A stretch of DNA of 51,535 nucleotides, taken from Candidatus Altimarinota bacterium. Its GTDB lineage: Bacteria > Patescibacteriota > Gracilibacteria > BD1-5 > UBA6164. The DNA lies in contig SAAG01000002.1 in NCBI GenBank assembly GCA_010119095.1, forward strand, positions 1-51,535. Reading direction: 5' to 3'. The notes beneath the pieces were generated by a model. That model made no database searches, had not been told where the DNA came from, and was given only the letters and a program-made list of their open reading frames with translations. Both the position numbers and the translations under genes were made by a program. Numbering within the stretch: the first letter of the stretch is position 1; the number at the start of each line of letters is the position of its first letter. Shown one piece after another: positions 5,311-21,960 of the stretch.

Positions 5311-7236
5311 ATGAAAAAAATAATTTCCTTATTTTTACTTACTCTTTTACTTATCTCTTGTGGAAAAACTGAAGAAACAGTAAAAAATACAAAAAAAGAT
5401 TTTTTGGTTCAAATAAAACCACTAGATTCTCTATGAAGTAATTCTTTTTTGAAAAAAAGTGGTAAAATAGAATGAAAAGAAGATATAAAACTTTCTTCTC
5501 AATGAATTTGAAGAATTTGAAATATCGCAGTAAAAGAATGAGAAAAAGTTAGAGCATGACAAAATATAGTTTTCTTAGATGATACTGTTGCAAATTATTG
5601 ATTGAATCTAGATAGAGCATGAGTATCAATTGAGAGACTTCAGATTAACTATGACTCTACTAAAGTATCCCTTGATAAACAAATATTTGATCTTGAAATA
5701 GCTTTAGAAAAACTTGAAAATAGCCTTAAAACACTTAAAACTACATCTTCTGTTGATATATCACAAGCTCAGGATAATTTAAACAATAGTGATTATGAGT
5801 GAATGGATACAAAATCTTCTTTAGAACTACAAAAACTTGATAATTCTATTTCAAAAGCAGAGCTAGATTACAATAATGCATTATCAAACAATAAAGAAAC
5901 AATAGAAAATTTTAAAAATTCTACAAAAAAAGAATATCTTACACAAAAAATGTTTTTAGATGATATAATTACCTTTTGAGATAAATTGTTTGATATTACT
6001 TGATTGTATGAAGATGATGTAAAAAAATTTGATGATTTTTTCTGAGCAAAAGATATGCTTCTAAAAAGTAAAACAGAAGAAGAATTAAAAAATTTAGTTA
6101 AAATAAAAGAAACTTTAAATTCAATGAATTTTGATAAAGAAAATTTGACTGAAGAAAATTTACTTGATTTTTTGTTAGTAATTGAGACAAATTATACTAC
6201 AATAGATAGATATTTAACTTCACTTGAAAAAACTATAAATAACTCTTTAATATCAGTATGACAACTTGGTCAAACTCAAATAGATGCTTATGTTGCAACT
6301 ACAAATGCTTATCAATCTCAATTAACAATAAATAATTCAGCTTTTATTGGTTTTAACAATTCTGCTTCTAGTTTTTTAAAAACATATAAAAACACAGAAA
6401 GTTCTCTTGCTAAACAATTAGAATTATTGAAAAAAGATAGAGATATATTTGTAAAATCTTATGATTTATGAACAACTAGTTCAGAAAACACTTTAACTAA
6501 AGTTGTTACTTCAAGTGAAGATGCAATTAACTCTATAGAATTACAAATAAAACAAACTGTTGAATCTATAAAAACAGCTAAAGAATCTAGAGATTTGACT
6601 CTTAAATGAATTGAAAATAGTATGAGAGAAGCATACATTGCACAAAACCTTGCTGCAAGAGAATATAACAAATTAAATATTACAGCTTCTATTGATTGAG
6701 TTATTTGAGACATATTTGTAGATGAATGACAGGATGTAAGTATGTGAACTCCAATTCTGACAATTATCTCTGATAAAGCATCTCAAGTTGAGCTATATTT
6801 TAAAGAAAGTGAGCTACAATACATAGATGTTTGAGATCCTGTTTATACAAAAATCTGAGAGAAGTCTCTTACTTGAACTATTTATTCAGTTTCATCTATT
6901 TCAGATGACTCTCTTAACTACAAAGTTTTGGCAGTGTTTAATGAAAAAATACAAAATCTTGGTTGAGTAATAGATGTTTCTGTTCCTATTAAATCAAAAT
7001 CTATTCTACTGCCTATTAAAAATGTAAAACTAGTTTGAACTAATAAATGAACTATTTATATATATGATAATAAAAAAGTTGTTCAGAAAGAAGTTCTATT
7101 ATGAAAAATGTATAAAGAAGATATTGAATTCTTGTGATTTTTGGACTCAAAAATCAATCCTAAAAAAGCATTTATAGTAACTAGTGATTTCACTAATTAT
7201 GATGAGAATAAATTCAATATAAAGATTGAACAATAG
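5311..7236 (+). CDS. Membrane fusion protein (HlyD/RND adaptor), lipoprotein
   Basis: Periplasmic-type adaptor of an RND or ABC-style pump. It begins with a lipoprotein signal (LLLISCGK, lipobox Cys near residue 17). A biotinyl-lipoyl-like half, with GRIGNIAVKEGEKVRAGQ near residues 70-90, precedes a very long helical, coiled-coil insertion of some 300 residues. The second half motif (ASIDGVIGDIFVDEGQDV) and beta-barrel region follow (ISDKASQVELYFKESE). At 641 residues it is much longer than the usual 350-420, the extra length lying in the helical hairpin. It precedes the RND gene, its evident partner; no outer-membrane channel gene is nearby. Confidence 0.85.
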
Positions 7237-7240
7237 AATA

Positions 7241-7355
7241 ATAATTAACAATTAATAATGATTAATTAATAATAAAAGTAGCTCTAGCTAATAATTATAT
7301 TATTATTTATTACTTAATTGTTAATTATTAATTGTTAATTATTAATTATTAATTA
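7241..7355. repeat. A+T-rich inverted repeat between pump genes
   Basis: This non-coding spacer holds AATTAACAATTAATAAT on its left and the exact reverse complement ATTATTAATTGTTAATT on its right, with further partial copies. Transcribed, it could fold into a long weak hairpin between the two pump messages. Related blocks occur at other intergenic sites in the window. Confidence 0.6.
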
Positions 7356-10300
7356 ATGTTTATGTCAAGACTTAATGAACTGAGAGAAAAAACACTTAAA
7401 TGATTTTTTTGATTTTGGGTTAGACAATATCGTATTTCCTATCTGGTTATACTATTAATAGTAATTTTATGAAGTCTTTCTTTAGTAAGTATTCCAAAAG
7501 AATCAAGTCCAGCTATTGAATTTGGTATGGTATCAGTTTCAACTGTTTATCCTTGAACAAATCCAAACGATATTGATAGCTTGATTACTGAAAAAGTATA
7601 CAAAGAAGTTAAAGATATCAAATGAATTGATAAAATAGAATCAAGTTCTTCTTTATGATTTTCATCAGTTATCATAACTTTAAAAACATGAGCTGATACT
7701 AAAGATGTAGTAAATGAAGTAAGAAACAATGTTAATAAAATAGTTTTCCCTACTGATGCTAAAACTCCAGTTATAACTGAAATCGATACTGATACAAAAC
7801 AAGCTTTTTGAGTTTATTTGTATTCAAAAGATCCAAATATTTCAAAAGGTATTTTAGTAGAAAAAGCTAATATATTGAAAAATAATATAGAAAAAGTTAG
7901 CTTAGTTGAAAGTGTTGATTTTGCTAATTGAAATCTTAGGTCAATGCTATGATCATCATCAACAAGTTGAAATGAATATGATATAGAAATAGTTATTCCT
8001 GAGGAAAAAATAAAAAATTCATGATTAACAATTGAGGCAATATCTTCTACAATTAAAGCATGGAATAAGGATATCCCTATCTGAAATTTTAAAGTATGAG
8101 ATAAAAAATATGACTTTCGTATAGAATGAAAATATAGTGATTCAATAGAAATGCTTGAAATTCCATTACAACTTAGTAGTTGAAACTACATAAAATTATG
8201 AGACATTGCATCAATTGAAAGAGTTTATAAAGATAAATCTATAAGTTTGGTATGAACTTATGAAAGAAATTGATTGCCATTTATATCACTTCTTGTAAAC
8301 AAAATAGATTGAGCAAGTATACTTACTGCTTCAAAAGATGCAAAAAAAGTAATTGAAGATACTTTTAAAACTGATGAGTTTAAAGATTTATCGTATGTTT
8401 ATGGTAATGATATAGCTGATCAAATAATGGAAGATTATAAAGATTTAGCAAGAGAAGCATTAACTACACTTATTTTGGTATTTGTTGCAATGTATCTCTT
8501 TGTTTGATTTAAAGATTCTGTGTTTGCATCTGTTACTCTTCCTTTGGCATTTTTGACAACTTTTATAATACTTTATTATGGTTGATATTCACTAAATTTT
8601 TTAACAAACTTTTCTTTAATCTTGTCATTTTGAATTGCAGTTGATACCATAATAGTAATAGTACAAGCCGCTTCAGCCAAAATGAGAGTATGATATGATC
8701 CTGAAACCGCTATAATGCTTGCACTTAAAGAATATGCAATTCCTATTATTTCTTGAGTATTATCTACTATAGTTGCATTTATACCAATGATGTTTTTACC
8801 AGGGATAATGTGAAAATTTCTAGCTTACATCCCTATAACAATATTTTGAGTATTGGCTTGTTGATTGGTTTTAGCCTTGACTGTAAACAGTGCTTTATAT
8901 CTACTTTTTGTTAGAAAACAAAAAAAATATGTGCATGATGATACTACTTTGGAATATGCTAGTGATGAAGAAAAAGAATTATTATACCTTGAAAGAGAAT
9001 GAAAAAAAGAGCTTTGATTTAGTACAACATCACTAAGAGTAAGAGTTATACATGCTGTAACTTTATGGTACAAAAGAGTATTGTCTACTTTCCTTCAAAA
9101 TACATTTATTAGAAGAGTTTCTATAATCATCCCTGTAATTTTGCTTATATTATCATTTATATTTTTAGCTCCTGCAGTATGATTTAATCTATTTCCTAGT
9201 GCAGATAATAATTATCTGACTGTCTCAATCGAATGAGAAAATGGTTTAAAAACAGAGAGAATGAATGAAAAAATAGTATGAATTAGTGATTATTTATCAA
9301 AATATAAAGAAATTAAATATTATACTATTTCAGTTTCAGATAATTATGTTGATATCACAATTCAACTTACAAAAAGAAATGAGAGACAGAAGCTGGGACA
9401 AAGAAATGTTTTTGAGATAGAAAAATTAATCTCAAAAGATATGGAGATTTATGAATGAAAATGATTAAAAGTAGTTACTGAAGCATTAAAATGATGACCT
9501 CCTTGATGAAAGGCTGTTTGACTTAAGATTACTGCTGAAAAATCTGAACAATTATCAGAGCTTATTGATACAGCAAAAGTATTTGAAAAAAAATTGAAAA
9601 CAATCCCTTGAACAAAATCAGTATCTCTATCATCAAATGATACTCCTGGGCAATTTATCTTTACTTTTAAAAAAGAGGTTTTAGGTACATACAATATTCC
9701 TCCTGCTGTAATTTATGGTCATATAATGCAAATGATGAACTGAGTTAATGTATGATCAATAGAAGACAATTGAACGGATATGGATGTGTATGTGAAACAA
9801 TCAAATTTTAGAGAAGAAGTAAATATCGACGATATTATGAATTCTAGTTTTTCTTATGCATGAAAAATATATCAAGTTGGTAACTTTGTTGAATATAATG
9901 CTAAAAACTCTATTGCATCTATATCAAGTGAGGATTGAAAAATTACAATTACTGTAGATGCTGACTTAGAGAAATGAGTTGATAGTGTTTCTACTCAAGC
10001 AAAATTTGAAGAATATGCAAAATCCTATACTTTTCCATCATGAATATCTTATATGAAATGATGAGAAAATGAAGAAAATAAAGAATTAATTGTTGCCGTT
10101 TTATCTTCATTTTTTATTGCAGTAATAATAATTTTCTCTATATTAACACTACAATTTAATAGTTACTCTCAACCACTTATAATACTATATTCAGTAGTTA
10201 TGTCATTACCATTTGTAATGCTTTGACTACTAATAACTTGAAATCCTTTTTCTCTACCTTTTTGAATATGATTTATATCATTTACTTGAATTGCAGTTAA

Positions 10301-10586
10301 TCACTGAATAATCTTGGTAGATGCTATCAATATAAACTTAAATAAATGAATGAACTCTTTTACAGCTCTGGTTGAAGCTTGATCTAGCCGTCTTGAACCA
10401 ATGACATTAACTACTTTTACAACATCTCTATGAATACTTCCAATTGCTATGAAAGATGAGTTTTGGGCATGAATGGGTTATACAATTATATTTTGAATAA
10501 TATCAGCTTCTGCATTAACATTGTTTATCTTAAAATGAATTTACTATGAAGTATATTTAAGAAGTGAGAAGAAGAAAAAAAGTTAG
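7356..10586 (+). CDS. RND-family efflux transporter
   Basis: A 1076-residue AcrB/MdtB-type RND pump with the duplicated 12-TM plan: one TM, a large extracytoplasmic domain (VSVSTVYPGTNPNDIDSLIT), TM2-6, then the repeat. In TM4 the usual Asp-Asp pair reads AVDTIIVIVQ (D430, T431), so only one acidic residue remains. TM10 reads GIAVNHGIILVD, without the AcrB lysine. The coupling network therefore differs from AcrB, though lysine-free versions exist in other RND subfamilies. The start is ATG 7356; ATG 7362 is equally possible. The substrate is unknown. Confidence 0.9.
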
Positions 10587-10637: not shown

Positions 10638-13106
10638 TTATTCAAATATACTAAAATTCATCTTTGGTACAAGTAAATCAACCATCATTGATTTAGTCAT
10701 TACCTTGTAACATTTATTGAGATAAGCTCATTTGCAATAGTCATTATTTATCTTGTCTTTTGAAGTAAAATCAAATTGTCATTTTTTGTAAATATCTTTT
10801 TTTACAATACTTTTTTTATCAAAAATAAAGTATACATTTTTTGTTTGAAAATATGAAATCTCTTCTTTAGAATCAATTCAAATTTCATCATATATGCTTA
10901 TCTTTTCTCATGGATATTTTTTTTCTAGATAAACCTCAAGCTTTTCTCTTATCAAACTATATGATGAATCATTTTTAAATTTTTGATACTTTTTAAGCCA
11001 TTCTTCACTATATTCTGCATTAATTCAAGCAAGCTTAAGTTCAATATAATCATCAAAAACTAAAGCTTTGTCATAATCTACATAATAATCTAGTGGTATT
11101 TTCATCTCTTTGAAAACAGTATATAAACTAGTTTTTCTTCAATTTATATCAACATAATTATTTTGAAATAAACAACTGTATTGTCCTCATGAACAAGCAA
11201 ATTTTGTATTGAATTGATAATTATATTTAAATTTAAAGTAGGTCTTTAAGTAATCTTTCCATTTAATTGGCTCATCTGGATTATAATACAGAGAATTTGA
11301 AATAACCTTATATCTAACTAGTGTCTTGAGTACACTTTTAAAATTATCAGACTGATATTTTATATCCTTAAATTTTAACGGAACTATTGTTTTATAGATA
11401 TTTGGTATTTTTGTTCCCCCATCTCAAATCTTGTCTATTGATACATTACTTTCTAGATAAGCAACCGTTTTTGTTAAATTTTCTACTATTGTTGTTCTAT
11501 TTGATACCAATAATCATTGTAAATAATATTCTTTATTATTTATTCATTTTAATTCATTAAATATGTTTATATAACAATATCTTTTATAAAATGAAAATCA
11601 TTTTTCATCTTTTGTCTTTATATCCTTATTTGGACAATACATATATCCATCATGTCACAAAAATTTTATTTTTTTCTTATAATCGCCCTCTATTCAAGAA
11701 GTATCTTCTAAATACATTTGATCAAGTGTTTTTGTTTTTCAGTTATTTTTTTCTAATTCTTTTAATGATAACTGGAAAAAATCTGTTAATTTTCAAAAGT
11801 AATTTATTGCCTCTCCTTGTGTATCACTAAGCATTGATCATGTTGAAATAGTGATTTTTGGTTTATCAATTTTTAAATTAGTTTCAATATTTTTTATTCA
11901 TGATTTATTAAAAGAAATGGTAGTTAGTATTTCATCTAAAGATGCAATAGAAGCTTTTTCTTTATATTGATCACTAAACTTTTTTCTATTTAAAAATATT
12001 GTAACTAACTTATCTTCTAACTTTGTAGCATAAATATGTTTTTCATAAAATGAATCTGAATTTATTAAAATATGAGTAAATTCAACCTGTCCTATTTTTT
12101 TCTTTCAAACTTTATCTTTGTTTTTATCATATAAATTTTGACTTGAAAAAAAGTATAATAACTCATCATAATTATCTACTTTGATATTTTTTTCTAACCT
12201 CACCTCCATGTAATTTACCAATGCATCATTATCAACTCTTGGCTTTAATATAAATCATTTATCTAAATTGTATCTTTTTATTTCATAATCCTTTTTAAAA
12301 GAGAAATTTACAAAATTATCACTTATTTTTAGTGAATTATTTAAACTATTCAATTTTTCACTCACTTTGATAAAATTATCTGAATTATTTATAGATAATG
12401 GGGCCTTTCATATGTTTTTCTCAATAAAACTTTTAGCTTCATTGATATCTAACGAATACAATGAGCTAGTATTATAAAACTCTGAAATATAGTTTGATGA
12501 AAATCAGATTAATTTTCCGTCTTTATTTGTAAAAGCTCATCCAAAAAATTTATTAGACAAAAGGGCATCTGATTTTAGATATTTATGATTTTTATATATT
12601 GACTCTCATGTAAATTTTCATTTCTTTTTTTGAATCAATCAATCCAAATTACCAGGGTATCAAATAGAATAATACTCTTCCTCTAATTTAGTTTTATAAC
12701 TGTATGCTATTTCTAAATAGGACAATTTTGTTAAATCAACTCAGCTTCATGAAGTATTTTTATCATCCAATTTCAATATCGCTAACTCTAGGTCTTCATC
12801 ATAATCAACTAAAGATGCAGTATATAAACAGCTTGGTTTTGTAGAATAATCTTTTGTTAAACAGATATTATAATACTCTGACGATACTCATTCCATATTA
12901 TTTACAGAGAAACTGCTTGCCAATAAGTAACCATCTTTGTTTAAAACAATTGCTGTTCATCATCAAACTTCCTCGATATTGTTTCAAATAACATCTTTAT
13001 AGCTTACTATTTTTACAACAGGTAAATATTGTTCTCATAAAGAATATGATTTATTAAAACAAACAAACAATAATACAAAAGCGATTATTAATTTTATTTT
13101 GTTCAT
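10638..13106 (-). CDS. Secreted protein with degenerate trypsin-like domain and SLH-like tail
   Basis: An 822-residue exported protein with a signal peptide (KIKLIIAFVLLFVCF). Residues about 28-205 follow a DegP/HtrA-type chymotrypsin fold: VGGGTAIVLNKDGYLLASS, then AILKLD, YSIGYPGNLDG and FFGGAFTNKDGKLIG. All three catalytic positions appear changed: the usual His is Phe66 (SSFSV), the Asp before LAILK is Glu107, and the GNSGG serine is Phe188. A hydrolase is therefore unlikely; binding or scaffolding is more plausible. The middle is unrecognised. Near the end, FKDIKYQSDNFKSVLKTL and NSLYYNPDEPIKWKDYLK resemble S-layer homology repeats, suggesting attachment to the cell surface. It follows the aminotransferase gene by 22 bp. 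Confidence 0.8.
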
Positions 13107-14478: not shown

Positions 14479-14506
14479 ATTATATTGAATATAAAAATAA
14501 AAACAA
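14479..14506 (-). promoter_or_regulatory. Possible promoter for the aminotransferase
   Basis: On the minus strand, TTGTTT (14501-14506), a 16-nt spacer and perfect TATAAT (14479-14484). It abuts the start of the divergent VirD4-like gene. Confidence 0.45.
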
Positions 14507-14514
14507 ATGGAAAA

Positions 14515-17358
14515 ATGAATAAATTATTTTATGTAATATTGTTTTCGCTTTATACCGCACCAACAACTTTTGCACAACTTATTCGTTCAAACACACAAAC
14601 GAATACCTTGAGAATTGCCTCTGAAACATCTGGAAACTCTGCAATTTATGATTTTTTTTCTGGTGTATTTCAGTTTTTTGGGTATCTAATTATCATAGTA
14701 GTATGAATTATTGTACTTATAAAAATAATAAGACTTCTATTTGAATTATACTATGCAAAAAATCTGATTTATCTGAGAGTTACTCTCCCAAGAAATGATA
14801 GTAAACTAGATAAAGAGCATGAAACAAAAAAGGATTTCAAAGAAAAAATTTGAATAATGTCTATGTTTTTTAAATCTGTTCACAAGATGAGTGATGCTGG
14901 ATTTAGAGAAACTGTTGTAAACTATGTATTTAAACATGCAAAACTTTCTTTGGAACTTGTTTATGAGAAATGAGAAGTTTCATTTTTTATAGTAACATAT
15001 AAAAGCTTTTTTAATCTTATTGCTCAACATATCACATCTGTCTATACAGATGCGGAAGTTAAGATAGTAGATCCAAAAAAAGAATATATAAATCTAAGGG
15101 AAAAATGATATAACATAAAATGTATTTCTCTGCAAAAACAAAATGATGATGTTTTCCCTATAAAATCTTATAAATACCTTGAAAATGATCCATTAAATAA
15201 CTTTACAAATGTTTTTTGATGATTATGAAAAGAAGATAAGGCAATATTTCAAATTGTGATTAAACCAGTAGGGTCAAAGTGGAATACAAAAGCAAAAAAG
15301 GCTGCATGACTTGTATCAAAATGACAATATTGAAAAAAGAAAAAATTTGCATATGCAGATTTTTTATGGAATCCGATTGTTGGTATGATTCAATGACCTG
15401 AAGATATGATAAAAAATCAAGAAAATGCTCCAGGAGCCAGTTCTTGAGATGCTTATAAGATATTTAATCAAGCTGAAACTGAAAGTCAAAAAATCATGTG
15501 AGAAGCTGCTAGTCAACCTGCTTTTAATGCATCTTTGAGAATAATTGTTAGCTCCAATTCTAAAGAAATGAGCACTGATTGAGTTAATGCAATTATATGA
15601 GCCTCTTCTATATTTACAGATGAATACAATAATTCTTTGGATAATCCTCAATTTAGAGAAGATACATTGTCTTTTATTTTCGTTCCAACTATTTATTTTT
15701 GATATAAATATAAACTAGTTTGATTTTTTCAAAATGTATCAACTTTTTCTGTTGATGAGATTTCTACTATGTATCATTTTCCAGATATAAACTACAATAA
15801 ATCTCCTTTAATAAAATGGTTAGATTATAAAAAATTGGCTCCTCCACATAATTTAAAATTTCCAAAAGAACCTACTATACTTGAAGAAAAAGATGAAAAT
15901 TGAAAAACTTCATTAAGTCAAAAAACCCTTGGATGATTTCCTGTCTTTAAAGATGGGGTTTTAATGTGATGGAATGAATATAGAAACACTAAAACTCCAA
16001 TATATTTTAGTAAAAAAGATAGATGAAGACATCATTATGTAATCTGAAAATCATGAGGATGAAAATCAGTATTTATAAACTATTTAGCAAGACAAGATAT
16101 ACGGAATTGAGATTGAATCTGTGTAATTGATCCTCACTGAGATTTGGTTGAAGATATATTAAAATACATACCAAAAGAGAGAGCTAAAGATGTGGTTGTC
16201 TTTGATCCTGGTGACGATGAAAGACCTATGTGATTAAATATTCTTGATATAATATCAACTGACCCTGAATGAAGGGCTAGAGAAATGGATAGAGCTGCAA
16301 TGGATGCTACTGAAATATTTATAAAGATTTTTGGTGATGAGATTTTTGGTCCTCGTATCCAACATTATTTCCGTAACTGAGCTTTAACCTTAATGGAAGA
16401 TGAGGAAGATTGAGGAACCTTGATTGATGTACCAAGACTATTTGTCGATGATGCTTTTATGAAATATAAAACTTCAAAAGTAAAAAATCCTGTTGTAAAA
16501 TCATTTTGGGATCATGAATATGCAAGTACTTGAGATAGAGAGAAACAAGAAATGATACCATATTTCTCTGCTAAATTTGGTCCATTTATTACAAATACCA
16601 CTATTAGAAATATTATCTGACAGACAAAATCTGCATTTAATCTGAGGGAAGTTATGGATAACAAAAAAATCCTTTTGGTTAACTTATCAAAAGGTAAAAT
16701 TTGAGCATTAAATGCACAGTTATTATGACTTATATTTGTATCAAAAATAAATATGGCTGCAATGAGTAGAGCCGATATTCCTGAGAGTGAGAGAAAAGAT
16801 TTTTTCTTATATGTTGATGAGTTTCAAAACTTTGCAACAGATACATTTTGAGAGATATTATCAGAAGCTAGAAAATATCGCTTAGCTTTGGTTATGGCTC
16901 ATCAATTTATTGCCCAAATTGGTTGAAGTGGAGATAAATATGGAAAATGATGAAAACCAGCAATTAAAGATGCAGTATTCTGAAATGTATGAACAATAAT
17001 GAGTTTTAAGGTCTGAGCTGAAGATGCAGAATATCTTGAAAAAGAATATGCTCCGCTTTTATCTCAACAAGATATAATTTGAATTGCAAATTATACAACT
17101 TACTGTAAACTTAATATAGATAATGCTTCAAGTCGTCCTTTTGATTTTAAAACTATTTGGGATGAGAAATATAAAAATGAGAAAGTTTCTGAGATAATCA
17201 AAGAATACTCTAGAAAAAAATATGGTAGAAAGAAAAAATTTGTTGATATGGAAATAGAAACTAGACTTGGAATAACTTCAATGGATAATAATGAAAACAC
17301 ATCTAGCCCTACAAATGAAACAGTTATACCTCCAACAGATGTAGCAACACAAACATAA
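14515..17358 (+). CDS. VirD4/TraG-like type IV secretion ATPase, membrane anchored
   Basis: A 947-residue ATPase of the HerA/VirD4 class. It has an N-terminal signal-like segment, a TM helix near residues 55-80 (FFGYLIIIVVGIIVLIKII), and a long middle domain. The P-loop GKSGGGKS lies at about residues 511-518, its glycines mostly UGA-coded. A DPHGDLVED block follows and Walker B is FFLYVDEFQNF, then the conserved AHQFIAQ segment and KVGAEDAEYLEKEY. Such proteins push DNA or protein through type IV secretion or conjugation channels, and CPR genomes carry them beside pilin-like genes, as here. I chose ATG 14515; in-frame TTG 14485 is an alternative. Confidence 0.88.
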
Positions 17359-17380
17359 TATTTATTATTAATTGTTATAT

Positions 17381-18319
17381 ATGTTAAAAAAAATTATTTT
17401 ATTATCTTTGCTATTTTTTAGTTTATTTTCAATAAACTATACTTTTGCTGATAGTGATTATGATACAAAAGTAAAGGTAGGTTCTGATACAAATACTATT
17501 GAAAATAATCGTTTAGATAAATTAGAAACTGAAGAATTTATAAAGCCAAGTAATACAAATACATGAGCTAATTGAATTAAAGATTTTATAGTAAAAGTTG
17601 CAAAAGATGTAAAAAATATATTTTATGCAATTGCTACAATATACTTTCTTGTTATTACAATAAGATTGTTGATTTCAGAAAATAGTGAAGAATCATTTGA
17701 AAAGTATAAAAAATGATTAATTTGGATAACTATTTGAATTGTTGTTATGCAAATGGCATATGCTTTTGTTCTAAGTGTTTTTGATAAATGAGTATCTACT
17801 TTTGCATGAAGCCTTATAAATACTGTATTTATTCCTGTAATTAGACTACTTGAGACTTTTGCCTCTATTTTCTTCTTACTTATTGCAATATATAGTTTTA
17901 TAAGATTGTTATCTGCTAATTGAGAAAAAGAAAAAATAAAACAATGAATTGATGCGATAATATATGCTACTGTTTGAATATTTTTAGTGTTATTGTCTTC
18001 TAGAATAATAATAGCAATTTATTGAAACTATAACATAAGTAGTTCTTGATTGTCATATATCGATAAAGAAGAAAATTTTTCAAGTTTTATAACTCTATTT
18101 GTTAAGCTAATAAATTGGATGAATTGATTTGTTGCAATTGTAACTCTTATAATGATAATGTATGCTTGAGCAAATATAATATTTTCTTGATGAGACGATG
18201 AAAAAATGAAAAAATGAAGAACTACTATAATTTATGCATTTATTTGAATTTTGATTTTAACAATTAGTTATCTTATTTTAACATTCTTCATCTGACCAGA
18301 TTGAAGTAAAATTACTTAA
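17381..18319 (+). CDS. Multi-pass T4SS pilin-like protein, triple module
   Basis: A 312-residue membrane protein with a signal peptide (LKKIILLSLLFFSLFSINYT). It contains three copies of a module built as TM helix, short polar linker, basic helix, TM helix. The linkers are ISENSEESFEKYKKG, LSANGEKEKIKQG and FSGGDDEKMKKG, each followed by I-Y-A-IG-type hydrophobic segments. This module is the core of the TrbC/VirB2-like or T4SS-pilin families of CPR bacteria, where it usually occurs once per protein. It lies 22 bp after the VirD4-like gene, in the same operon. A membrane-embedded part of the channel is inferred. Confidence 0.75.
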
Positions 18320-18348
18320 TTTATTATACTATTATTTAATTTAATAAT

Positions 18349-19242
18349 ATGTTTAAAACAATATTTTTATATCTAGTGATGATTGGGTCATTAACTCTTT
18401 CTTTTTTCATGTCTTTTGATATATGTAGAGCATGAGTTGTTGACATATCATGAGATTCTGAAATAAAAAAAGTATCTCTAGAAAAAAAATCATGAACTTT
18501 GGTTGATAACATAAACGAAACTTGATTTTCTTTATTATCAAGTATAAAAACTATTTTAATATGAGTTTTCTTGTTTTATATAGTTTATGCTTGAGCAAAG
18601 ATGATTATGTCAATGTGAACAGATGATGCAAAAATAAGCTCTGCTAAAAGACAAATCTGGTATGGTGTCATATGAATTATTTTTATAAACATACCTTGAA
18701 CAATTTATAATGCCTTTTTCAAGGAAACACAATGATGAAACTCTACAACAACAAATTGGTCATGAAGCTGAATAAGTTCTATTGTATGAGATTGATTTGA
18801 ATCATTATTTAAATTTATTGTTTGATTACTTGAGATATTGATATTTTTTATCGCTTTATTTATCTTTATTTACACTTGATTGAAATTGATAATCTGATGA
18901 AAAGATTCAAAAACTGTAAATGAAGCAAAATTAAAGATATTGTACTCTATTGTTGCTTTGGTACTTGTTTGATTTATAGAAGTATGGAAAGAGTTTGCAT
19001 TTGGTGCTGATTTTGCTGTTTGATATGGTATATTTAGAACTATCGCAAATTTATTACTTTATATTGCTCCACTGATATGATTATTCTTCTTAACTTTAGC
19101 TTGATACTATTACATAACTTCAGGTTGAGATAAAGAAAAAGTAAAAAAATCAAAAGATATAATAATCTATATTCTTCTTTGAACTTTGATCTTTTTAGCT
19201 TCTTACACTATATTAATAGAATTAAATACATTTATTAATTAA
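18349..19242 (+). CDS. Multi-pass T4SS pilin-like protein, triple module
   Basis: A 297-residue paralogue of the upstream gene, again with a leader segment and three TM-linker-TM modules. Module linkers are MSMGTDDAKISSAKRQ, IIGGKDSKTVNEAKLK and ITSGGDKEKVKKSKD; the last is the closest match to the single-module pilin-like proteins of the island. The short loop ETQGGNSTTTNWSGSG between modules is probably extracellular. It follows the previous gene by 29 bp and precedes the next by 9 bp. The role is inferred from the family and neighbours only. Confidence 0.75.
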
Positions 19243-19251
19243 ATTTTTTAT

Positions 19252-19653
19252 ATGAAAAAAATATTGTTACTAATAATTACATTTCTTGCATTTTTTGTAT
19301 TTCAAAGTACTTATGCAGAAACAATTAAAGTAAAAATCCCTATAAATCTAAGTTCAGTTATAAGCACTTGTTGAAGTGAACCAACTGATTGATCCTATGA
19401 ATGTAGCATAACAACATGATTTTCATCAGTAAAAGAGTGATTATGACAAATAGTAAAATATTTAACATTTATGACATGACTTGCCTGAGTATTATACATA
19501 ATAATAAACTGAATAATGCTTAGTATGGCATGACTTGATCAAAATATGGAAAAATCTGCTAAAGATAACATCAAAAAAACTCTAATTTGATTAATTATTT
19601 TACTTCTTTCATGATTAATATTGAATTTTATTGCTCCATGGATTTATGTATAA
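19252..19653 (+). CDS. T4SS pilin-like small membrane protein
   Basis: A 133-residue protein with a signal peptide (KKILLLIITFLAFFVFQSTYA), a short exported region with three cysteines (ISTCGSEP, YECSITT), and one two-helix module with linker SMAGLDQNMEKSAKDNIKK. It has the size and plan of TrbC/VirB2-like pilins. Its TAA stop (19651-19653) directly abuts the stop of the opposite-strand gene. It is the last plus-strand gene of the island. Confidence 0.75.
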
Positions 19654-20013
19654 TTATATTCAAACACTTGTTACAAGTTTAACTGCTCACCAAGATAATA
19701 TAATTACTACTATTCATATTACAGCATAAATAAAGGTTTTCCAAGCTTTTTTAAATTGAGCTTCATCTCAATCAGATGTAATAAAAAGGTATCAAACATA
19801 AATAAAAACACCTATAATAATCAATGCAATAACTGCAAAAATATACTCTGTAAAACCATCAAAAATATTGTCTAAAATCTCAAATCAGTCTCATCATCAT
19901 AAACTTATTATACTTTTTGCTCAAGCACTTTCAGGATCTACATCAGATTCACTGAAAGAATATGCTTTAGAAAAAACAAAACACAATAACAAAGTTTTTA
20001 TTATATTAATCAT
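19654..20013 (-). CDS. T4SS pilin-like small membrane protein
   Basis: A 119-residue exported two-helix protein: a leader (INIIKTLLLCFVFSKAYS), a short glycine-rich loop, then TM, linker ITSDGDEAQFKKAWK and a second TM (FIYAVIGIVVIILSWGAV). The pattern is the same as in the convergent gene with which it shares abutting stop codons. It follows the next pilin-like gene by only 4 bp, so the three minus-strand copies form one message. Confidence 0.78.
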
Positions 20014-20017
20014 AATT

Positions 20018-20404
20018 TTATATAGTTATATAAGCCTCATTAATTAAATTAATTAGAAAATATCATGAAATAGAAATAAATACCGCTATAAGCGACCAGA
20101 AAATCCATTTTCTGGCTTTTTTTGCTTTTTCTTCTTCTCCTGCAGAAAAAATATACATAAATCCTGCAAAGATTAGGGCTATAACAGCGACAACGGCAAC
20201 ATATTTAATTAACTCAGCTACAAGGTGTCACAAAAAGCTTAATGCATCTCCAGAACTAGATGAACTACAACCTGGCAATCAATCACATTTTATATTTGGA
20301 CCACTTGATCCTCATCCTCCTCAACCAATAGAAATAGAAATTCATGCAAAAGCATAATCTAGTGATAAAAAGACTCAAAGCAGTATATATATAACTTTTT
20401 TCAT
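20018..20404 (-). CDS. T4SS pilin-like small membrane protein
   Basis: A 128-residue exported protein with a signal peptide (KKVIYILLGVFLSLDYAFA), a glycine-rich segment, a two-cysteine loop (KCDGLPGCSSSSSGD), then TM-linker-TM with linker FSAGEEEKAKKARKW. This is the most typical pilin-like sequence of the island and the best candidate for a true VirB2/TrbC-like pilin subunit. It starts 9 bp after the stop of the upstream pilin-like gene. Confidence 0.8.
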
Positions 20405-20413
20405 AATACTTTA

Positions 20414-20815
20414 TTAACTATATAGTATGTATCTAACAAGATTCATCAAATAATAAGAACTTAATGCAATAAATAATGCTAAAAATCCTGTATATATCAT
20501 ATTTCTTCATTTTGTTAAAAATTCTTCTTTTCAGTTGTAAAATATCATATATCCTGCTCATATTGTAACTACAAGTAATGCAATAACTCAAATTGAAACC
20601 ATAAGTATTCAAATAACATCAACAAGAAAATTATCTGCTTTTTGTTTTAAAGTTCATCCTGGAACTTTATCAGCTCATATTGGTGCTATATCTGATGTAG
20701 TTATTGTGAAAGTTGGTTTTGAAAAATCAGAATCTCATTCAACTTGAGTAAATTGAAAAAATCAAAATAATATTGATATAAAAAATAGTAATGTAATTTT
20801 TATTTTATTTATCAT
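20414..20815 (-). CDS. T4SS pilin-like small membrane protein
   Basis: A 133-residue protein: an N-terminal TM or leader (ITLLFFISILFGFFQF), an exported segment, then a two-helix module (VSIGVIALLVVTIGAGYMI, linker FYNGKEEFLTKGRN, second TM). The linker is less conserved than in the neighbours and lacks the GGD-like turn. It is the first pilin-like gene of the minus-strand group, 11 bp after the helical-repeat gene. Confidence 0.72.
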
Positions 20816-20826
20816 ATTTTTTATTA

Positions 20827-21960
20827 TTAATAATCTGACATAACATAATCAAAGTAACCCGTTTTAACATTAAACTCATAAGTTATACCATATTCTTTAT
20901 ATTGTTGAAAATCTTTTGGAACATAGTCTATGTATCATTTTTCAAATAACTCTTTGTCAGTAAATGCATTTTTTCAAGTAGACTTAAAATAAGCTTTATT
21001 TGCATTATCTAGATAATACAGATTTATTTCTCTAACCGTCTTATTTACATAGTTTTGACAAGAATTACTATCTAGAAATTCTTTTTCTCTTTTATCATTA
21101 AACTTTCAAAATATATCAACTAACAACTTTTCTAATCCCTTAATAACATTTGTATCTATGCTTCTTATTTGTTCAATTTGATTGATTAATCACAAACATT
21201 TTCTATCTATTTCTTTTTTTTCATCTACTACACTACGAGCAAGAGTTAAAAACATAAAAATAGATTTTTCTCTATCTCATCACTTTCATTGCATTATAGC
21301 AGCCATTATTTTTGCTCATTCAAGACTATCTTCATTTGCACTTGCAACTTTATAATAAAATGCTGAATTAATCGGATCATTTTTATAAAAATAGTAAATA
21401 TAAGCAAGATAAAAGGGTACTTTATAGGATTTGCATGGATTTTTATACTTTTCCTCGCTCCATATTTTTACTAAGTCAAACTCTTTTTTTATCAATGCAA
21501 CAGTATCTTCATTACAAAAATTTTTCATTCCTTTCAATCATACATTAATTCATTGATCTATATATGCCTTTTGTTCTAAATCTGATAATTTTTCATATCT
21601 ATAATTGAAATCTGGCAATAAAAGCTGTGCTATAATATATGGGTGTTCAAAAAATGGATTTAAATCAGTTATTAAATCAGTAATTTTAAATAAGTATTTT
21701 TTGTATTCTGCATTAATTGCATTTCCTCAAATATACTGAATTGTTTTTAACCGATACAAATCTGCTCTAAGATTATTAAAACCAAAACTAGTCAATTTTG
21801 CAACTTGGCTTTTTGGCAAATTTTCAGGGTGATAAACATATATTTCTTGGATTTTCTTTTCTATTTTGTAGTTTGTTTCATTAATCTTGTAAAAAGCTAA
21901 TAAAACAATTACAAAAAAAATAAATATAGATATTTTTTTTAAAGCTTCTTTTTGTTTCAT
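20827..21960 (-). CDS. Membrane-anchored helical-repeat (TPR-like) protein
   Basis: A 377-residue protein with one N-terminal TM anchor (KKISIFIFFVIVLLAFYKI) and an all-helical extracytoplasmic part. The block NNLRADLYRLKTIQYIGGNA and later NPFFEHPYIIAQLLLP and FYLAYIYYFYKNDPINSAFYY have the spacing of TPR-like repeats; similar ADL-W-L-IQY blocks occur in bacterial tetratricopeptide proteins. The ending has several cysteines and YIDYVPKDFQ. It leads the minus-strand part of the island, so it may help assemble the pilin-like apparatus. I do not recognise a named family. Confidence 0.7.

Follow-up and report, generated by a model that had tools for sequence, protein, structure and literature searches.

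Paired proteins of three fused pilin modules across the Gracilibacteria: a candidate membrane platform for a type IV secretion pilus

Why should a secretion-pilin module be strung together three times in each of two neighbouring proteins of a Gracilibacteria genome? Gracilibacteria are tiny, parasitic-type bacteria that live on other cells, and in one cultivated relative the type IV secretion system (T4SS) is essential. The two proteins are encoded in the window, by which we mean the whole stretch of 51,535 nucleotides analysed here, from Candidatus Altimarinota bacterium (contig SAAG01000002.1). Translated with NCBI code 25 (TGA = Gly) the window yields a normal gene set, while table 11 leaves almost no long frames; the six pilin-module genes at 17372–20815 are readable under the former and absent under the latter. 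They comprise three forward-strand genes (312 or 315, 297 and 133 aa) and then three reverse-strand genes (119, 128 and 133 aa), P0001 being 312 aa long if it starts at ATG 17381 and 315 aa if it starts at TTG 17372. The genes and their modules are as follows:

14485..17358, forward strand: P0008, VirD4/TraD-like coupling ATPase of 957 aa, opening the run (Pfam DUF87, TrwB_AAD_bind)
17372..18319, forward strand: P0001, triple-module protein 1 (PF18895 in three stretches; AlphaFold2 hairpins)
17576..17788, forward strand: P0001 module 1, with the degenerate turn ENSEESFEKYKK (module profile, 52 bits)
17816..18028, forward strand: P0001 module 2, turn NGEKEKIKQG (module profile, 52 bits)
18083..18301, forward strand: P0001 module 3, turn GGDDEKMKKG, nearest to single pilins (module profile, 79 bits)
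18349..19242, forward strand: P0002, triple-module protein 2 of 297 aa, paralogue of P0001 (PF18895 in three stretches; hhalign)
18511..18729, forward strand: P0002 module 1 (module profile, 52 bits)
18796..18981, forward strand: P0002 module 2 (module profile, 32 bits)
19030..19227, forward strand: P0002 module 3, turn GGDKEKVKKS (module profile, 64 bits)
19252..19653, forward strand: P0003, single-module pilin-like protein ending the run, module at 19429–19644 (PF18895, 28.5 bits)
19654..20013, reverse strand: P0004, single-module pilin-like protein, module at 19669–19875 (PF18895, 40.0 bits)
20018..20404, reverse strand: P0005, single-module pilin-like protein, module at 20036–20236 (PF18895, 25.3 bits; TrbC, 22.3 bits)
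20414..20815, reverse strand: P0006, single-module pilin-like protein, the most diverged, module at 20432–20641 (TrbC at E 0.023 only)
20827..21960, reverse strand: protein of 377 aa adjoining the reverse-strand pilins, without Pfam or NCBIfam matches (67% identity in a congener)

A sequence-only reading of this DNA had described six genes of one TM–linker–TM pilin-like module, ten modules in all (3 + 3 + 1 + 1 + 1 + 1), and its gene lengths, module count and family assignment all stand under code 25, with PF18895 and with a profile made from single-module proteins. PF18895 (T4SS_pilin; gathering cut-off 26.6 bits) matches P0001 at 57.1 bits and P0002 at 55.4 bits, in three stretches each, and is above its cut-off once each in P0003 and P0004; P0005 is slightly short of it, and P0006 has no PF18895 match and a weak TrbC match alone in the Pfam search, though its congener orthologue does match the module profile. 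The singles-only profile was trained on a set that included P0003–P0006 themselves but left out every triple; it picks out exactly three domains in P0001, three in P0002 and one per single, and the next ORF of the window scores E = 0.086. P0001 and P0002 are thus members of the T4SS_pilin family with three modules each. Their families align with each other at an hhalign probability of 100 (E 1.4e-59, 251 columns), and signal-like segments are found at the N-termini of triples and singles as well. One detail of the earlier description was too broad: the GGDxEKxKK turn is clear in third modules and in P0004 and P0005 only, whereas modules 1 and 2 carry it in a degenerate form.

Two other pilin models bear a looser likeness. 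TrbC/VirB2 pilins (PF04956) share the two-helix hairpin, basic turn and signal-like N-terminus, and a weak, repeated profile similarity, but the PF04956 cut-off of 27.9 bits is reached by none of the proteins (P0002 26.7, P0005 22.3, P0004 20.5, P0006 15.3), and a mature VirB2 pilin contains a single hairpin, as do P0003–P0006, against three in P0001 and in P0002. The model for the Mbov_0395 family of pilin-like conjugal transfer proteins (NF045849) covers one module in 80 positions, and it matches each triple in three stretches, at 38.7 and 38.2 bits, under its cut-off of 40.

Could these simply be ordinary six-TM proteins that are modular in appearance only? Fold searches lend this some support in giving generic helical matches: Foldseek returned nothing under E 0.2, VIA-align returned only generic helices, and no T4SS pilin or VirB6 surfaced in the fold searches, a result that excludes nothing; nor was any pilin found among solved structures searched with the triple and single profiles. 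The controls, however, contradict chance resemblance. Each triple is matched three times by a curated Pfam family, reversal of 73 multi-module proteins from the class loci left not one domain, other multi-TM ORFs in these loci were without any domain in 48 of 51 cases (the exceptions being two single-module PKD proteins and one triple split by a stop), and module positions are kept across the class. We regard the probability of this explanation as negligible. AlphaFold2 likewise predicts three helical hairpins in each triple rather than unrelated folds, with pLDDT 80.6 and pTM 0.65 for P0001 (long-helix hairpins at residues 63–136, 138–214 and 233–304) and pLDDT 80.3 and pTM 0.50 for P0002.

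Seen from the window alone, the family had looked locally amplified. Comparison across genomes contradicts this, as the pair is ancient and class-wide. P0001 has matches in 191 of 192 class genomes, a tally that takes in single-module hits too, and in a sample of the phylum the triple-protein profile was matched over most of its three-module length in all 26 class genomes. For the 261 non-class genomes of that sample, none of the matches listed spans most of the profile, the best listed outside the class being one of 116 bits over about two modules. Thirty-nine class loci, analysed by ORF, encode 73 proteins with at least three modules, 71 with three and two with four, and 34 of these loci contain an abutting, same-strand pair of triples separated by −81 to 54 bp. 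The loci that depart from the pair do so at a contig end, by a frame split by a stop, in a lineage with one triple, or with a neighbour too diverged to score. That one-triple lineage (L234, L239, L260, L263 and L266, from the order to which the window belongs) has the ATPase followed by one triple-module gene alone; the second paralogue may have been lost, moved or become too diverged to detect.

How firmly the pair is tied to secretion genes varies among families. P0008 passes the Pfam cut-offs for DUF87 (32.8 bits against 23.2) and TrwB_AAD_bind (28.9 against 20.5), bearing out the VirD4-like ATPase proposed beside the pilins, and in the window's family the order ATPase–triple–triple recurs in 28 named Gracilibacteria genomes, with a single-module gene after the triples in 26 of these 28 loci (the wider collection was searched with the coupling ATPase as query). 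In many class families, however, the two paralogues, hereafter A and B, stand alone between housekeeping genes with no T4SS gene adjacent, and at many loci single-pilin genes are not adjacent either. Such isolation suits a two-protein complex, and at those loci the functional link to secretion is drawn from resemblance to the pilin family and from the gene order of the window. This isolation and the near-universal presence of the pair in the class also lend some substance to the proposal that A and B have left the T4SS and reuse the pilin fold in some general membrane complex, such as an insertion aid, a channel or an envelope anchor. We nevertheless think this quite improbable: in the window's family the pair remains linked to genes for a VirD4-like ATPase and a single pilin, and in other families to genes for single-module PKD proteins.

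A tree of the triple cores falls into two paralogue groups, with three changes of first/second label compared with about 24 when labels are shuffled; the A/B gene order appears swapped in the window's order, albeit with weak tree support. Profiles of the individual positions pair A1 with B1 and A2, A2 with B2, and A3 with B3, module 3 being the position nearest to the single pilins. In held-out genomes module position was recognised for 412 of 426 triple modules (97%), and A or B type was assigned correctly for 147 of 147 proteins. The tree, together with this recognition of position and paralogue, dates the fusion to three modules, and the subsequent duplication to a pair, to before the split of the sampled families; the A/B separation is older than their divergence. 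Module number is also matched between partners: 33 loci have 3/3, and family f10 has 4/4 in five genomes with complete loci (L088, L306–L309, with four modules in both paralogues), where the A-type and the B-type protein each acquired an extra '2'-type module. Matched numbers are expected if A and B form a complex, the 4/4 match being that of one family and possibly of one or two events.

The modules also differ by position. An Arg ends helix 1 in 50–70% of modules 1 and 2, an Asp or Glu lies within helix 2 in 30–40% of them, and a Lys occurs in helix 1 in 70% of module 1; in a consensus comparison all three features were missing from module 3 and from single modules. Module 3 is by this comparison single-pilin-like, and modules 1 and 2 are specialised. 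The net charge of the turn rises through modules 1 to 3 and is highest in the singles, and the linkers are net acidic; this mild asymmetry would agree loosely with turns on the inner and linkers on the outer side of the membrane.

These patterns bear directly on whether the triples are structural pilins, that is, pre-linked protomers within the fibre, at its tip or in a rigid segment for example, whose three hairpins fill three neighbouring subunit positions. The hairpin and turn retained in all three modules, the signal-like N-terminal segments shared with the singles and the almost single-like module 3 all agree with such a role. Identical lattice positions would, however, be expected to hold similar modules, so the position-specific divergence of modules 1 and 2, with charges gained in and at the ends of helices, counts against it, as does the frequent occurrence of the pair without adjacent single-pilin genes. 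On balance we consider that the triples are unlikely to be fibre subunits.

A different role was suggested by two reports: VirB6 was reported absent from Gracilibacteria in one study (PMC12102498), and CedA, with 6–7 TM helices, resembles the CedA1 pilin in its N-terminal region, just as VirB6 resembles VirB2 (PMC9905601). The triples were for this reason tested as the missing VirB6, namely as the channel itself, a CedA/VirB6-like pore of fused pilin hairpins, with which their intramembrane charges are compatible. Yet 14 of 184 class genomes have a PF04610 (VirB6/TrbL) match over the cut-off, and the triple pair is present in several of these 14 too. The window's own genome encodes a VirB6-like protein (G000:C72:20132–21637) from a family shared by 24 of the 25 genomes in the window's family; the link of this VirB6-like family to TrbL is moderate (hhalign probability 69.8 over 48 columns). 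P0001 and P0002 have no Pfam match to TrbL, and the triple and VirB6 profiles do not match each other (hhalign probabilities 1.6 and 11.4). Replacement of VirB6 by the triples is not supported: separate VirB6/TrbL or VirB6-like proteins exist, one of them in the window's own genome, and the profiles do not match. That the triples are the channel in place of VirB6 seems to us improbable, to about the degree that a place in the fibre does; a pore alongside VirB6 is possible.

The T4SS of this genome appears scattered. An impression of a reduced or unusual apparatus was half right, as the reduction is not borne out: reading of the sequence identified a VirB4-like candidate on another contig (G000:C59) and PrgI/VirB3-like and TrsD-like candidates beside a pilin on a third (G000:C108), in addition to the VirB6-like gene, and there are more single pilins outside the window's run. 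In other classes, clustered genes match the VirB4 candidate at E near 0 and the TrsD candidate at E 1e-32 to 1e-44; no VirB4 Pfam model is over its cut-off in this genome. In other Patescibacteria classes one two-module protein is found among single pilins, often near VirB4, TrsD, PrgI or VirB6-like genes, and in some genomes directly adjoining VirB4, TrsD and VirB6-like genes. At every locus of family f12, within the class, that is long enough (L155:289–3332, L157, L161 and others), the gene for a TrbL/VirB6 protein of about 670–850 aa is succeeded by one for a two-module pilin. Taken together, these arrangements show multi-module pilins to be a component of T4SS clusters distinct from VirB6. 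The two-module proteins of other classes probably do not correspond to the C-terminal pair of modules in the triples, since they lack the position signatures; separate fusion events or an ancient divergence would account for them better.

The reading that we favour, at something just short of an even chance, is that A and B do not polymerise but stay embedded in the membrane, where they serve as base or platform for a type IV secretion pilus with a fibre of single-module proteins. It keeps, as a best guess, the original suggestion that fused copies are fixed while single ones polymerise. Both proteins would be exported and inserted as pilins are, with the charged hairpin turns and the linkers on opposite sides of the membrane, and would be retained in the membrane as an A–B complex serving as a fixed base or assembly platform for the polymerising single-module subunits. 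Single pilins may dock on module 3, the most pilin-like; modules 1 and 2, which have gained charges within helix 2 and at the ends of helices, may keep the complex assembled or form the lining of a pore, and VirB4/VirD4-type ATPases would presumably supply the energy. A more specific version, in which the Gracilibacteria have a distinct secretion pilus built on an obligate A–B platform, possibly a pore, of fused pilin modules in equal hairpin number (3/3 or 4/4), we consider doubtful, if somewhat less so than the fibre and channel alternatives.

Some of this has known counterparts. The same module occurs in the Patescibacteria VirB2 arrays, where clustered, highly divergent pilin genes lie near T4SS genes, but those arrays, in the accessible part of their description, are of 2–11 single pilin genes (PMC12102498), whereas each chain of the A–B pair has three fused, position-specific modules. 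In the crenarchaeal Ced system (CedA, CedA1, CedB; PMC9905601), too, a polytopic protein partly homologous to its partner pilin is accompanied by a HerA/VirB4-type ATPase; the Gracilibacteria differ in having two polytopic paralogues with three full modules each, CedA being compared here by its description. VirB6/TrbL, proposed as a pilus assembly platform (PMC12857230), is like the triples a polytopic inner-membrane T4SS protein of about six helices, though with no profile similarity to them. The module family and the single-gene arrays are thus known already. New are the fused, paired, position-specialised triples, of which we found no account in the open-access literature searched; in its accessible part, a 2025 survey of Patescibacteria T4SS counts pilins by profile and does not describe fused multi-module proteins.

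If the platform reading is true, A and B are a concrete new T4SS component, kept in nearly every genome of the class, and a living case of a pilin-derived polytopic membrane component of such a system. A shared origin has been suggested for pilins and for the polytopic channel proteins VirB6 and CedA, its direction being left unresolved (PMC9905601). The pair would bear on the common origin of VirB2/CedA1 and VirB6/CedA, and a pair of fused, position-specialised pilin trimers near T4SS genes offers a natural intermediate with which to test it.

A few further observations concern the surroundings of these genes. In the window, HlyD-type and AcrB-type (RND) genes lie adjacent at 5311–10586, in a Gracilibacteria genome, RND pumps being normally partnered with an outer membrane, and the reverse strand at 10638–13106 encodes a secreted-looking protein of 822 aa whose N-terminal domain is trypsin-like (HtrA-type) and whose long C-terminal remainder is unassigned. 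Contig C98 of the same genome assembly (G000:C98, L145) carries a VirD4-like gene but, in contrast to all other parts of the genome, lacks in-frame TGA codons, and is possibly a contaminant. Elsewhere, giant surface-type proteins of up to about 1,670 aa, with one pilin module in the N-terminal region, are encoded directly downstream of the triple pair, at L062:10004–14767 (forward strand), where PKD repeats come after the module, and similarly at L063, L067, L069, L071, L084 and L091; whether these are pilin-anchored adhesin stalks is a question they pose. Finally, pilin arrays lie near a gene that reads as ComM/YifB-like, a label taken from its sequence alone, at L123, L125, L127, L132 and L137 and in the window's own genome (L012:5103–9056), which suggests a tie to DNA uptake or recombination.
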